Assembly (NCBI RefSeq): GCF_013294025.1
Contig: NZ_JABSNL010000003.1
Coordinates: 62,001-126,000 of the forward strand
From: Flavobacterium aeripolare
GTDB taxonomy: Bacteria; Bacteroidota; Bacteroidia; Flavobacteriales; Flavobacteriaceae
Reading direction: 5' to 3'
DNA length: 64,000 nt
Shown: one piece after another, positions 3,751 to 24,601 of the stretch
Layout: the number at the start of each line of letters is the position of its first letter
Position numbering within the stretch: position 1 is the stretch's first letter
Notes under the pieces: generated by a model
What the model was told of the DNA's origin: nothing
Seen by the model: the letters and a program-made list of their open reading frames with translations, nothing else
Databases searched by the model: none
Made by a program: the position numbers and the translations under genes

Positions 3751-4914
3751 TTATTTTGATGCAAATAATTTCACGTCACTTTCTGATATTTCGCTTCCGC
3801 CAAGAATAATTAATCGCTCGACTACGTTGCGCAGTTCTCTGATATTTCCTGTCCAGTCGTATTCTTGCAATAGTTTGACAGCGTCTTTTGTAAATTTCTT
3901 TACTGAAGTTCCCTGCTCAGATGCTATTTTATTTGTAAAATGGGTGATTAGTAGTGGAATATCATCTCTTCGCTCATTAAGTGAAGGAACTTTAATTAAA
4001 ATTACTGCTAATCTATGGTATAAATCTTCACGAAAACGGCCTTCGGCAATTTCCACTTTTAAATCTTTATTTGTAGCTGCTACAACTCGCACATCTACTT
4101 TGATATCCTTGTCTGCTCCTACTCTAGTAATCATATTTTCTTGTAGCGCACGTAATACTTTAGCTTGAGCCGAAAGACTCATATCTCCAATTTCATCTAA
4201 GAAAATCGTTCCTTTATCTGCCGCTTCAAATTTTCCTGCACGGTCTTTCACTGCAGATGTAAAAGCACCTTTAACGTGACCAAACAATTCACTCTCTATC
4301 AATTCACTAGGTATGGCAGCACAATTTACTTCGATCAAAGGAAAATTTGCACGTTCACTTTTTTCATGTAATTGGTGCGCAACAAGCTCTTTTCCTGTTC
4401 CGTTAGGCCCAGTAATTAAGACTCTAGCTTCTGTCTCAGCAACTTTATCAATCATTACTTTTATAAGATTGATAGCGTCACTTTCCCCTATCATTTCGTA
4501 GTTTTTACTTACCTTTTTCTTCAGTATTTTATTCTCTACTACTAGTTGCTTTTTGTCTAATGCGTTTCTAACTGTGTTTAATAAACGGTTTAAATCTGGT
4601 GGTTTTGAGATATAGTCAAAAGCCCCCATACGCATCGTATTAATTGCTGTTTCCATATCGCCGTGACCAGAGATCATTACCATAGGAATTTCGGGTTTGA
4701 TTTTTTTAACGGCTTCTAATAATTCGACACCATCCATCTTTGGCATTTTGATGTCGCATAGCACCAAATCATAATCGTTATTTTTAATTTTTTCAAAACC
4801 AATAATACCATCTTCAGCATCTTCTACTTCGTAGGTGTCATTTTCTTCAGATAAGATTTTACCTAACACTCTTCGGATTGCTGCTTCGTCTTCTATGATT
4901 AATATTTTTGGCAT
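3751..4914 (-). CDS. sigma-54-type response regulator lacking a DNA-binding domain
   Basis: 387 residues: a receiver domain (1-115, phosphoacceptor Asp54 in CDIKMPKMDG, conserved Lys104) joined by a helical linker to a sigma-54-interacting AAA+ domain. The ATPase has Walker A GPNGTGKE (169-176), the L1-loop motif GAFTSA (216-221, usually GAFTGA) and Walker B GTIFLDE (235-241). The protein stops right after the arginine-rich NIRELRNVVERL helix, so the Fis-type helix-turn-helix found at the C-terminus of NtrC-like regulators is missing. It probably acts from solution on RpoN holoenzyme or through other contacts. No histidine kinase is adjacent. It is transcribed leftwards, 60 bp upstream of the helicase-like gene. 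Confidence 0.88.
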   Translation of the reverse strand: MPKILIIEDEAAIRRVLGKILSEENDTYEVEDAEDGIIGFEKIKNNDYDLVLCDIKMPKMDGVELLEAVKKIKPEIPMVMISGHGDMETAINTMRMGAFDYISKPPDLNRLLNTVRNALDKKQLVVENKILKKKVSKNYEMIGESDAINLIKVMIDKVAETEARVLITGPNGTGKELVAHQLHEKSERANFPLIEVNCAAIPSELIESELFGHVKGAFTSAVKDRAGKFEAADKGTIFLDEIGDMSLSAQAKVLRALQENMITRVGADKDIKVDVRVVAATNKDLKVEIAEGRFREDLYHRLAVILIKVPSLNERRDDIPLLITHFTNKIASEQGTSVKKFTKDAVKLLQEYDWTGNIRELRNVVERLIILGGSEISESDVKLFASK

Positions 4915-4999: not shown

Positions 5000-5080
5000 T
5001 CTTTAGCCCTGATGGAAGCGGCATCCTCGAAGCCCCGATTTTTAGGGACGTAGAGATACAGCGTACAGCAGGTACTATGT
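5000..5080 (+). ncRNA. structured RNA element, Flavo-1-like, copy 1
   Basis: On the plus strand, TAGCCCTGATGGAA-G-CGGCATCC is followed by a variable hairpin (GCCCC ... GGGAC) and then by AGATACAGCGTACAGCAGG. The same two conserved ends, differing at only a few positions, flank a different hairpin at 24182-24264 on the other strand. Conserved ends around a covarying or variable stem are typical of a structured RNA. From memory this matches the Flavo-1 RNA family of Flavobacteria; the name needs a covariance-model search. It lies between the response-regulator gene (divergent) and the exporter permease (convergent). A short open frame across it is not a gene. Confidence 0.6.
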
Positions 5081-5165
5081 TTACTGACAAAAATCAAGCC
5101 ATTCGCTCCTACTTCTTAGTTATACAAAATGCAATTTCTTTTTATCGAAAGTACAGTTTAGCTTT

Positions 5166-6488
5166 TTATCCAGTATATTTCAACCAACGATAAAGCTCTT
5201 TCCAACTTGGTTTTTTTCCATACATTAAAATACCTACACGGTAAATTTTTGCTGCAAACCAAACCACTGCAAAAAATGTAACAAATAACAAAGTCACTGA
5301 TATCGCGATTTGCCACAAAGGTACGCCAAATGGAATACGCATAAGCATTACAATAGGAGAAGTAAGCGGAATCATAGAGAAAACTACAGCAACGGTCCCG
5401 TGCGGATCATTAATTACACTAAAAAAACCAACATACACACTCAACATAAGTGGCATGATGATAGGAATTAAAAATTGTTGTGAATCTGTTTGATTGTCGA
5501 CTGCTGCACCAATGGCTGCGTAAAACGAACTGTATAAAAAATAACCTCCTATAAAATACACTACAAATCCTATGAGAATAGCCGCAATAGGCAAGTTCCA
5601 TAATTCAGTAATGTATAATTGTGCGGTATTAGTGATTTGCATTTGTGCCTCACTCATTAATTCAGGTGGCATTTTTGTGGCTGAACCCACATTTACTCCA
5701 AAGAACATTGAAGCAGCAAACATGATAGATAGACCAATAATAGCCCAGATAAAAAACTGGAGGATACCTGCTAAAGATGTTCCTATAATTTTACCAATCA
5801 TTAATTGAAACGGTTTTACCGACGAAATGATGATTTCGATAATACGGTTTGTTTTCTCTTCGATTACACTGCGCATCACCATATTACCATATATGATAAT
5901 GAACATCATAATCAAGTAACCAAATCCACCACCTATGGCGATTTTGATTTCGTTTATTCCCTTTATACTTTGTTCCCCAGACGCTTTTGCTAGGCTTATA
6001 TTTACTTTTGATTGTGCATTTTGAATGGCTAGCGTATCTAAATTAGCTTTATGTAAATTAATTTTTGTAATCTTATCTGCCACCGTTTTTTGAACTTGTT
6101 CAATAAAAACAATGCTAGGACTATTATTAGACACAAATTGAATCTTTGTTTCTAAATCACTCACATTTTTAGACTGCGGAATAATTAAAAGTCCCTCGTA
6201 GCGCTCCTTAGTGATACTATCTTTTAAGGCTGCAGTTGCAGTGGTAGAGAGATCGATGTATTTATAGGCATCGTCCTTCTTATTTTTTGTAGTGAACTCC
6301 TTGACAAACAAGCCCGACTCATCGTGAACCGCAATTTCCTTTGTATCTGCTTTCATCGAACTTAAATACGTGATAAATGCGATGATAGCAACAAACAATA
6401 ACGGACTCAAAAAAGTCATTACTATGAAGGATTTGTTGCGCACTTTGGCTACAAATTCTCTTTTTATAATTAATGATATAATACTCAT
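5166..6488 (-). CDS. ABC-2 type exporter permease (NatB-like)
   Basis: A 440-residue membrane protein of the ABC-2 family. It has one transmembrane helix near residues 20-43 after a basic start (IIKREFVAKVRNKSF), a large extracytoplasmic domain (~45-185), and then about five hydrophobic helices to the C-terminus. This is the NatB/YhaP layout, whose members export sodium ions, drugs or peptides with a partner ATPase. The ATPase gene lies directly upstream with a 34-bp gap, so the pair forms a transporter operon. The substrate cannot be inferred. Confidence 0.87.
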   Translation of the reverse strand: MSIISLIIKREFVAKVRNKSFIVMTFLSPLLFVAIIAFITYLSSMKADTKEIAVHDESGLFVKEFTTKNKKDDAYKYIDLSTTATAALKDSITKERYEGLLIIPQSKNVSDLETKIQFVSNNSPSIVFIEQVQKTVADKITKINLHKANLDTLAIQNAQSKVNISLAKASGEQSIKGINEIKIAIGGGFGYLIMMFIIIYGNMVMRSVIEEKTNRIIEIIISSVKPFQLMIGKIIGTSLAGILQFFIWAIIGLSIMFAASMFFGVNVGSATKMPPELMSEAQMQITNTAQLYITELWNLPIAAILIGFVVYFIGGYFLYSSFYAAIGAAVDNQTDSQQFLIPIIMPLMLSVYVGFFSVINDPHGTVAVVFSMIPLTSPIVMLMRIPFGVPLWQIAISVTLLFVTFFAVVWFAAKIYRVGILMYGKKPSWKELYRWLKYTG

Positions 6489-23536: not shown

Positions 23537-24145
23537 ATGCTAATTATAGGAATCGCCGGAGGAACAGGGAGTGGGAAAACAACTGTAGTTCATCAAATTA
23601 TGAATGAATTACCAGAAGCAGAAGTAGGTATTATTTCGCAAGATTCTTATTATAAAGAGAACCATAACCTTAGTTTTGACGAGCGTGCTTTGATAAATTT
23701 TGACCATCCTCGAGCTATCGATTTTGAACTTTTAGTGACGCATTTAAAGCAGTTAAAAGAAAATCAAACCATTCAACAACCCGTATATTCTTTTGTAACA
23801 CACAATAGAACTGAAGACACTATTACTACTCATCCTAGAAAAGTGATGATTGTTGAAGGGATTCTAATACTAGCAAATCCAGAATTAAGAGACTTATTTG
23901 ACGTAAAAATTTACGTTCACGCTGACTCTGACGAACGATTAATTCGCCGTTTAAAAAGAGATATCGCTGATCGCGGTCGCGATATGGACGAGGTATTAAA
24001 CCGTTATCAAAACACCTTAAAACCTATGCATCAGCAGTTTATAGAACCTACTAAAGCCTTTGCTGACATCATTATTCCTAACGATAAATACAATACGGTG
24101 GCAATTGATGTAGTTCGTGCTGTAATTAATCAAAGAATTCTATAA
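23537..24145 (+). CDS. udk: uridine kinase
   Basis: 202-residue P-loop kinase that phosphorylates uridine and cytidine in pyrimidine salvage. The Walker A is GGTGSGKTT (8-16), followed by the uridine-kinase landmarks ISQDSYYK, NFDHPRAIDFELL, VEGILIL and RRLKRDIADRGRD. Length is normal. It heads a row with divIC, mutA and mutB that I recall as conserved in Flavobacteriaceae, although a minus-strand RNA element sits between it and divIC. Confidence 0.95.
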   Translation: MLIIGIAGGTGSGKTTVVHQIMNELPEAEVGIISQDSYYKENHNLSFDERALINFDHPRAIDFELLVTHLKQLKENQTIQQPVYSFVTHNRTEDTITTHPRKVMIVEGILILANPELRDLFDVKIYVHADSDERLIRRLKRDIADRGRDMDEVLNRYQNTLKPMHQQFIEPTKAFADIIIPNDKYNTVAIDVVRAVINQRIL

Positions 24146-24181: not shown

Positions 24182-24264
24182 TAAGAGCTATTTCCTGCTG
24201 TACACTATATCTTAGCTGCCAAACACTGGCAACTAAGGATGCCGTTTCCATCAGGGCTAAAAAC
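24182..24264 (-). ncRNA. structured RNA element, Flavo-1-like, copy 2
   Basis: Read on the minus strand: TTAGCCCTGATGGAA-A-CGGCATCCT, then a variable hairpin (TTAGTTGCCAG ... TGGCAGCTAA), then AGATATAGTGTACAGCAGG and AAATAGC. The flanks agree almost base for base with the element at 5000-5080, while the hairpin differs in sequence and is a good stem in both. It runs opposite to udk and divIC; its 5' end lies just upstream of the divIC start, so its promoter would be inside divIC. The family name Flavo-1 is from memory. Confidence 0.62.
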
Positions 24265-24271
24265 CAACCTA

Positions 24272-24601
24272 ATGATCAATCCTTATAAAAATAGTACCTG
24301 GTTTAAATGTGTTAGCAATAAATACATCTGGGTCTTACTCTTTTTTACTGTCTGGATGGTATTTTTAGACAATTACTCTTACTTTGATCACCGTTTTCTC
24401 GATGACCAAATTGGTGAACTTGAGGACAATAAAGAATACTACCAAGAAGAGATTAACAAGGATGAAGAGCAAATCAAACAGCTTAAAAATCCAGAACAAA
24501 TCGAGAAATATGCTCGTGAGAAATACTATATGAAAAAAGAAAACGAAGATATATATCTTATCGAATTCGAAAGTGATAGTATTGAAAACAGCATGAAATA
24601 A
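24272..24601 (+). CDS. septum formation initiator, FtsB/DivIC family
   Basis: 109 residues: a short cytoplasmic N-terminus, one membrane helix (YIWVLLFFTVWMVFLDN) and an extracytoplasmic coiled coil (DDQIGELEDNKEYYQEEINKDEEQIKQL) with the family ending AREKYYMKKENEDIYLIEF. It is expected to join FtsL and FtsQ at the division site. An in-frame ATG at 24239 would add residues encoded by the reverse strand of the RNA element at 24182-24264, so the ATG at 24272 (MINPYKNSTW) is chosen. mutA follows by 27 bp. Confidence 0.88.
   Translation: MINPYKNSTWFKCVSNKYIWVLLFFTVWMVFLDNYSYFDHRFLDDQIGELEDNKEYYQEEINKDEEQIKQLKNPEQIEKYAREKYYMKKENEDIYLIEFESDSIENSMK

Follow-up and report, generated by a model that had tools for sequence, protein, structure and literature searches.

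The fold of one strand of the Flavo-1 element appears to be maintained at fixed sites in Flavobacterium, irrespective of neighbouring gene orientation

The window analysed here, a 64-kb stretch of the Flavobacterium aeripolare genome, contains two copies of a small structured element. Copy 1, whose core spans 5001–5079 on the plus strand, lies between two minus-strand genes, one for a response regulator with sigma-54 activator AAA+ and lid domains (3751–4914) and the other for an ABC-2 type membrane protein (5166–6488). Copy 2 (24187–24262, minus strand) is antisense to both of its neighbours, a uridine kinase-type gene of the Pfam PRK/Uridine kinase family (23537–24145, plus strand; here called udk) and an ORF for a DivIC-type septum protein (Pfam DivIC; 24239–24601, plus strand). 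The listed ATG of this ORF falls inside copy 2, and a start common across species was seen by eye downstream of the element. Pfam annotation of neighbours covers these two copies only. An earlier note on this DNA, prepared from its letters alone, described the sigma-54-type regulator as lacking a DNA-binding domain, and Pfam agrees, giving receiver, AAA+ and lid domains and no DNA-binding domain at E ≤ 0.001. Its adjacency to copy 1 is probably the coincidence that the note had suspected, because copies of the element sit at more than 100 different intergenic sites.

The same note had named the element Flavo-1, and the Rfam covariance model RF01705 bears this out. Both copies exceed its gathering score of 42 bits, with matches at 5001–5079 (plus strand, 49.7 bits, E = 9.6e-8) and 24262–24187 (minus strand, 72.6 bits, E = 4.8e-14), and no third match at or above that score was found in the 64 kb. 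The letters quoted in the note were located at 5004–5072 on the plus strand and at 24262–24187 on the minus strand. A home-built model, R1, recovered both copies (67.7 bits for copy 1); its only other matches were two weak ones (E = 0.017 and 0.089). R1 was built from 52 copies of this genome that include both window copies, so that their match is partly by construction. Both window copies are ordinary members of this known family.

In copy 1, the 5' arm (5008–5014) comprises a CCTG stem, a single A.G mismatch (A5012), a T pair and a G pair, with partners at 5066–5072, and the pairs of this arm covary across 83 parsed copies of the genome. Next comes a first GNA/GNA internal module, with GAA at 5015–5017 as its 5' half and GTA at 5063–5065 as its 3' half. 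An extra module of this kind, present in a minority of copies, interrupts the terminal stem (GAA at 5029–5031, GTA at 5050–5052). The variable hairpin GCCCC..GGGAC reported earlier is present at 5032–5049, but its stem (5032–5036/5045–5049) is not fully paired and carries one C.A mismatch, whereas the F. frigidarium orthologue, GTCCC/GGGAC, pairs completely. Past the core, copy 1 probably continues as a type C 3' extension of about 30 bases (5080–5109) that ends in GCTCC at 5105–5109, judging by its likeness, by eye, to other type C copies.

A general anatomy emerges from a strict arm pattern that fits 83 of the 108 copies found in this genome and leaves out 25. On the strand represented in Rfam, the outer stem reads mostly C-C-x-G, with pair x being T-A in 31 copies, G-C in 17, C-G in 16, A-T in 14 and others in 5. 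A single A.G mismatch follows (78/83; swapped to G.A in 5/83), then a T-A pair and a free pair y (A-T 51, G-C 14, T-A 12, C-G 4, mismatches 2), and all four Watson–Crick types are seen at both x and y. Inward of pair y lies a 3x3 loop, G-n-A over G-n-A, whose ends are G.A in 82 and A.G in 80 of the 83 parsed copies; because the pattern itself limits which letters may stand at the G.A, A.G and T positions, their conservation is partly by construction. The outer bases of this first module are also invariant or at least 90% conserved when 52 copies are aligned without the pattern. Its middle bases occur in twelve combinations with no evident covariation among the 83 copies. A second module, two pairs inward of the first, takes either of two interchangeable forms; beyond it lie ATC/GAT, then a bulged C, and finally the terminal hairpin, whose sequence is free. 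The third GNA/GNA module, within the terminal stem, occurs in 7 of 108 copies here, window copy 1 included, and in 4 of 102 in F. frigidarium.

At least three architectures, types A, B and C, surround this arm. Type A, to which copy 2 belongs, ends in TAGCCC..GGAAATAGCTCC, and type C, which includes copy 1, extends for about 30 further bases to GCTCC. In type B the outer part is replaced by GCGTGA..TCACGC around the Flavo-1 arm, and a second hairpin is added. The type B outer stem covaries in an alignment of 20 of the 43 B-like copies from two species, some of them orthologues of one another: columns 7-153 are G-C in 13, A-T in 5 and unpaired in 2; columns 8-152, T-A in 17, C-G in 2 and unpaired in one; columns 9-151, G-C in 15, A-T in 4 and unpaired in one; and columns 11-96, A-T in 8, G-C in 11 and G.T in 1. 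In individual sequences the second hairpin is readily recognized by eye. A three-way junction of the type B arm with a second free hairpin is likely, not proven, because column-wise only the first pair of that hairpin aligns well (C-G 18, T-A 2). Subtype letters follow a simple rule that misfiles some type A copies with CCGGAT under B and two B-like copies under C; the tests of conservation, wobble and gene context are independent of these letters, and the promoter logos were anchored and split by a rule of their own. Some type B copies have the second internal module swapped for GGAGCTC/GAGCGGGAAC, a different conserved internal loop (L050:4230-4329, L091:1505-1604, L356:4338-4419, L368:712-792). 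A recurrent insert, roughly ACGAGCGAAGCGAACTGACGAAGTAA before AGCTCC, was seen in two species (3' flanks of L273:5392-5474 and L208:2578, and the F. degerlachei orthologue of L188:5668) and suggests a fourth architecture.

The genome-wide count that the earlier note had proposed revealed many further copies. Scoring 150 of 836 first-look candidates gave at least 108 matches at E ≤ 1e-3 in this genome, of which 102 exceed the gathering score; the total is a lower bound. Among this genome and its relatives, 40 of 60 genomes have matches; these counts derive from 65 scored candidates per genome and therefore mean at least 65 at the top. Within the genus, copy number outside this genome ranges from 0 to at least 81: two genomes have no matches, two have one and several have at least 65, while two single-contig genomes hold 59 and 81 copies, and F. 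frigidarium gives 118 matches. Flavo-1 is dispensable, since genus genomes with no copy or a single one exist. At E ≤ 1e-5, Flavo-1 was detected in 53 of 395 genomes across the phylum and in 0 of 14 control genomes. As candidate sources, phages and plasmids were rejected: viral contigs searched with two arm patterns had no Flavo-1 match, nor did phages and plasmids, each searched with one 111-base query spanning the element and its borders.

At L188:5668-5746 and 5959-6037 (G000:C11:89667, 89958), two near-identical copies lie in a tandem duplication (period 291 bases), and F. frigidarium has one copy at this site. Long CGAT..ATCG hairpins were seen at L024, L027, L029, L034 and L041, where copies lie within about 1.1 kb of contig ends, and some F. 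frigidarium copies are likewise near contig ends. Such copies may lie at the edge of a long repeat, for instance an rRNA operon; no rRNA was found in the examined stretches around the five contig-end copies.

Wobble pairs point to the strand that folds. The six unconstrained arm pairs of the 83 parsed copies contain 20 G.T wobbles and a single A.C (p = 2e-5 if shared ancestry is ignored); the T-A pair, whose letters are restricted by the arm pattern, was excluded. In a 52-copy MAFFT alignment, G.T exceeds A.C by 11 to 1 in the arms and by 16 to 3 in the terminal stem. Because G.T so far exceeds A.C, the folded strand appears to be the Rfam strand and not its complement; since the copies were collected with an RNA model that favours G-U over A-C, part of the asymmetry may come from the search itself. 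Predicted folding energies differ little between the Rfam strand and its complement (-23.1 and -21.4 kcal/mol), with the Rfam strand giving the lower value in 77 of 108 copies.

Comparison with F. frigidarium indicates that the copies are conserved in place. Of its 118 copies, 102 were used; those left out were 15 weaker matches and C30:2978, which is close to a contig end. Both flanks are orthologous to those of a copy here in 79 of the 102, one flank in 5 and neither in 18. Across the 79 orthologue pairs, median identity is 91.1% within the element and 73.6% in the adjacent 60-nt flanks, and the element exceeds its flank in 70 pairs (Wilcoxon p = 1.8e-12). Two pairs are identical across 76 bases, with flanks at 91.4% and 79.5% identity, the latter being copy C11:102146. 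Changes of stem pairs were counted in both directions in the 67 pairs with at least 80% identity, the other 12 of 79 being left out. Compensated changes number 50 against 5.5 expected under independent change, and the other changes, taken over all stem pairs, are 40 to G.T, 18 to A.C and 63 to other mismatches, so that the wobble asymmetry is weaker here than in the arms. The fold thus appears to be maintained across species divergence, though imperfectly, since compensated changes far exceed expectation yet mismatches also arise. Within the element, in these 67 pairs, unpaired bases changed at a rate of 10.3% and paired bases at 5.0%.

Some sites have also been rewritten. C1:10251 differs from its F. 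frigidarium orthologue in arms, loop form and hairpin, with flanks 86% identical, and C1:18483 is of type C here and of type B in the same gap of F. frigidarium. As to target-site duplications, flanks at 75–90% identity offered no clean empty site; F. degerlachei apparently lacks Flavo-1 at one site and F. kayseriense has a remnant, observations that are suggestive only.

The site of copy 2 provides a deeper comparison. Among the best 80 of 578 udk loci found, 36 carry Flavo-1 between udk and divIC, in every case on the strand opposite both genes; among the intergenic sequences read from the other loci, some gaps are only a few dozen bases long and some hold apparent remnants. Alignment A3 contains the 33 best of the 36 copies (the weak matches L155, L165 and L170 were left out) and was fitted to model R1, and it therefore leans toward the R1 structure. 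In it, 96.8% of 633 cells pair and both sides have changed in 169 cells, against 57.4 in shuffled alignments; the covariation score of 0.612 compares with 0.190 after shuffling and no more than 0.125 after sliding, and a slide of one column reduces pairing to 48%. Four of the five structure measures lie above every shuffle. The fifth, the number of further pair types, shows no excess (37 against 34.0 shuffled, with 60 of 500 shuffles reaching 37). G.T again exceeds A.C, by 8 to 1 across the 33 loci. Relatedness without structure, or model fitting, is unlikely to explain the A3 signal in full, given the slid controls and the replaced hairpins.

Copies lie between genes, in either orientation. 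By simple ORF calls on the 108 copies, 45 are antisense to both neighbours and 24 sense (p = 0.015 for the excess), 15 lie in convergent and 14 in divergent gaps, 9 have a missing neighbour and 1 is inside a predicted ORF. No constant sense leader position, as expected of a cis-regulatory RNA, was found among them. A role in the neighbouring mRNAs predicts decay or reversed wobble in antisense copies, and neither is seen: their median orthologue identity is 91.4% (n = 35), compared with 87.8% for sense copies (n = 16), and their arms contain eight G.T wobbles and no A.C. The fold of the Rfam strand therefore seems to be selected at fixed sites whatever the orientation of the neighbouring genes. 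Orientation was also considered relative to replication, with the origin set at dnaA and the terminus at half length in two one-contig genomes (123 of 140 matches, those above the cut-off). No overall bias was found, the leading strand accounting for 25 of 55 and 33 of 68 copies, so that a fork-strand function is not favoured; the better-scoring halves, pooled, lean to the lagging orientation (leading 21/61, p = 0.02).

Because the fold is kept on the Rfam strand in either gene orientation, that strand would act outside the mRNAs of its neighbours, and Flavo-1 probably works as folded DNA or as a stand-alone RNA and not as part of a gene's message. Three observations lead us to prefer DNA. First, no conserved promoter or terminator accompanies the copies. 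Over the 80 nt upstream of 157 anchored copies (88 of type A and 69 of type C), every column stays below 0.6 bits, and paired promoter-like boxes of the Bacteroidetes type precede 7 of 210. A T-run directly after the element, as in an intrinsic terminator, is present in 3 of 210 copies, and 7 of 210 have an A-run before it, as for an antisense terminator. Of 98 copies with clear context, 3 have a terminator-like site downstream on the sense strand; separate hairpins of terminator type are seldom found other than on the upstream side in convergent gaps (5/15). Second, in F. psychrophilum, Flavo-1 hits disregard transcript strand, being sense or antisense to newly defined transcribed regions, and many fall in none (PMC9723704); those regions were defined outside the annotation and Rfam predictions, which makes this evidence indirect for Flavo-1. 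Third, and weakly, the terminal loops speak against RNA: over 102 distinct contexts of this genome, which represent few independent families, TTTT (11) and GNYA (8) are more frequent than GNRA (2), and UUCG is absent among 96 tetraloops.

We accordingly arrive, with a probability of about 45%, at a reading in which Flavo-1 would be a host-kept REP/BOX-like repeat that acts as a folded single DNA strand. In its working form the Rfam strand would be folded on itself as a single strand, with a short stem and helix steps broken by GNA/GNA modules with conserved G.A/A.G ends, capped by a terminal hairpin whose sequence is free and whose pairing is obligatory. Acting most likely as DNA, the strand would be exposed single-stranded or extruded and then bound by a putative protein, and the family may have originated as an ancient REP/BOX-like mobile repeat retained by the host. 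Somewhat more tentatively, the catalogued sRNA may in fact be a structured single-stranded DNA element at about 100 sites, its GNA/GNA modules stacked and its hairpins exchangeable, read by a dedicated putative protein and selected site by site.

The earlier note had argued for a functional RNA rather than junk, with a transcript of its own of about 80 nt. The first half of that claim stands insofar as conserved ends and a covarying stem indicate a maintained fold and not junk; the second finds no support in the upstream sequences of the 157 anchored copies or in the newly defined transcribed regions of F. psychrophilum (PMC9723704). The main rival to the DNA reading, which we consider unlikely, is that Flavo-1 is a stand-alone sRNA: a promoter of its own, or one nearby, would drive transcription of the Rfam strand of each copy, and the product would act as a structured RNA. 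A strand-specific fold with G.T wobble that is independent of neighbours, site-by-site conservation and the Rfam type 'Gene; sRNA' would all suit such an RNA, and low-level transcription from scattered promoters is compatible with the sequence. Against it stand the flat upstream columns, the scarcity of promoter-like boxes and downstream terminator-like sites, hits in F. psychrophilum that are sense, antisense or outside transcribed regions (PMC9723704), and the udk–divIC site, where little room is left between the element and the divIC start.

Improbable, in our judgement, is a mobile REP/MITE-like repeat that lacks a host function and whose structure serves only a transposase acting in trans. 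The wide range of copy number within the genus, the patchy distribution across the phylum, the intergenic scatter and the occurrence of different subtypes at one site in two species are what such a repeat would produce, but unpaired and paired bases are both kept above the flanks at the 79 orthologous sites, and no match appeared in the viral contigs (two patterns) or in phages and plasmids (one query each). Nor was a link to Y1 (RAYT) transposases found, either as flanking genes or as co-occurrence. In the 37 genus genomes searched, this one included, PF01797 has a match in 27, and many copy-rich genomes do carry Y1 genes. What speaks against a link is that five copy-rich genomes (G004, G011, G029, G030 and G035, with 41 to at least 65 copies counted) have no PF01797 match; G022, with eight matches, has 14 copies counted. 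In a motif scan of 30 Y1 loci, the Flavo-1 left arm appeared only in two overlapping loci of G036, where by eye a Y1 gene lies between two Flavo-1 copies, one truncated, within a segmental duplication. Three RAYT-like genes read closely (L221, L222, L223) are flanked by other palindromes. A cognate Y1/RAYT transposase was rejected on this evidence.

The Y1 genes themselves yielded some observations. The only PF01797 match in this genome, of 152 aa (L031:1399-1857; G000:C11:103887-104231), lies between genes that by eye resemble hemB and hemF and adjoins a separate palindromic repeat family, about TCCCTATGGGATTCAA.. CGCATTGAATATTGTCTA, which is not Flavo-1. By eye it matches subclass 1.2 of a published classification, for which the signature Y...Q..HH is described (PMC6006769), and Y1 genes of about 190 aa, L221, L222 and L223 among them, look like its subclass 2.6. 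At L222:1050-2400, in genus genome G013, a RAYT-like gene sits within an array of GCACGGATTGCAAATCCGCGCTATCGG repeats.

A cis element of the neighbouring mRNAs, whether leader, attenuator, terminator or 3' stabilizer, is very improbable: 24 sense copies exist, and in F. psychrophilum Flavo-1 hits overlap several 5' transcribed regions (PMC9723704), but antisense copies outnumber sense ones 45 to 24 beside 15 convergent and 14 divergent copies, the antisense copies retain the Rfam-strand fold and wobble direction, and a T-run directly follows so few elements.

Flavo-1 was found computationally in 2010. Weinberg 2010 tabulates it with the marks y, n, n (PMC2864571), and a review table lists it without a function (PMC9029176). 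No paper giving its function was found in the literature searched, which lay mostly outside subscription journals, nor was any on dispersed palindromic repeats of Flavobacterium. The headings over those three marks we take to be RNA, cis-regulatory and switch. The new result is that selection appears to keep the fold of one strand in place whichever way the genes run, a finding that sits uneasily with the sRNA label. It narrows the question from what this RNA regulates to what reads this strand, and function becomes testable at named sites, udk–divIC and C11:102146.

Compared with known systems, the copies described here share arms, internal loops, variable hairpin and phylum with Flavo-1 of Rfam, whose model RF01705 has 76 positions. 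The GNA/GNA modules and the several architectures are new: the modules and the A.G mismatch that swaps to G.A go beyond the Rfam description, as does the third module of some copies, and the outer stem and second hairpin of type B extend the element. With REP/RAYT (TnpA-REP) systems, Flavo-1 has in common small palindromic intergenic repeats, high copy number and a strand-specific fold. It differs in that its presence does not follow Y1 genes and in that no GTAG or CGTC tag, as described for REP-type repeats (PMC3733652), was noticed by eye at its ends. The same source reports CGTC-tagged repeats in Bacteroidetes, and the word Flavobacter does not occur in its main text (PMC3733652). Flavo-1 also resembles repeats of the BOX and ERIC type in being intergenic, present in many copies and able to fold. 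The function of BOX and ERIC repeats, which are likewise intergenic, numerous and foldable, is debated. In integron attC sites, one folded DNA strand is recognized through conserved arms with unpaired bases and a variable terminal structure. By analogy only, Flavo-1 may be likened to attC in its folded strand, arms and variable end, and it is unlike attC in that no cassette-like arrays were noticed.
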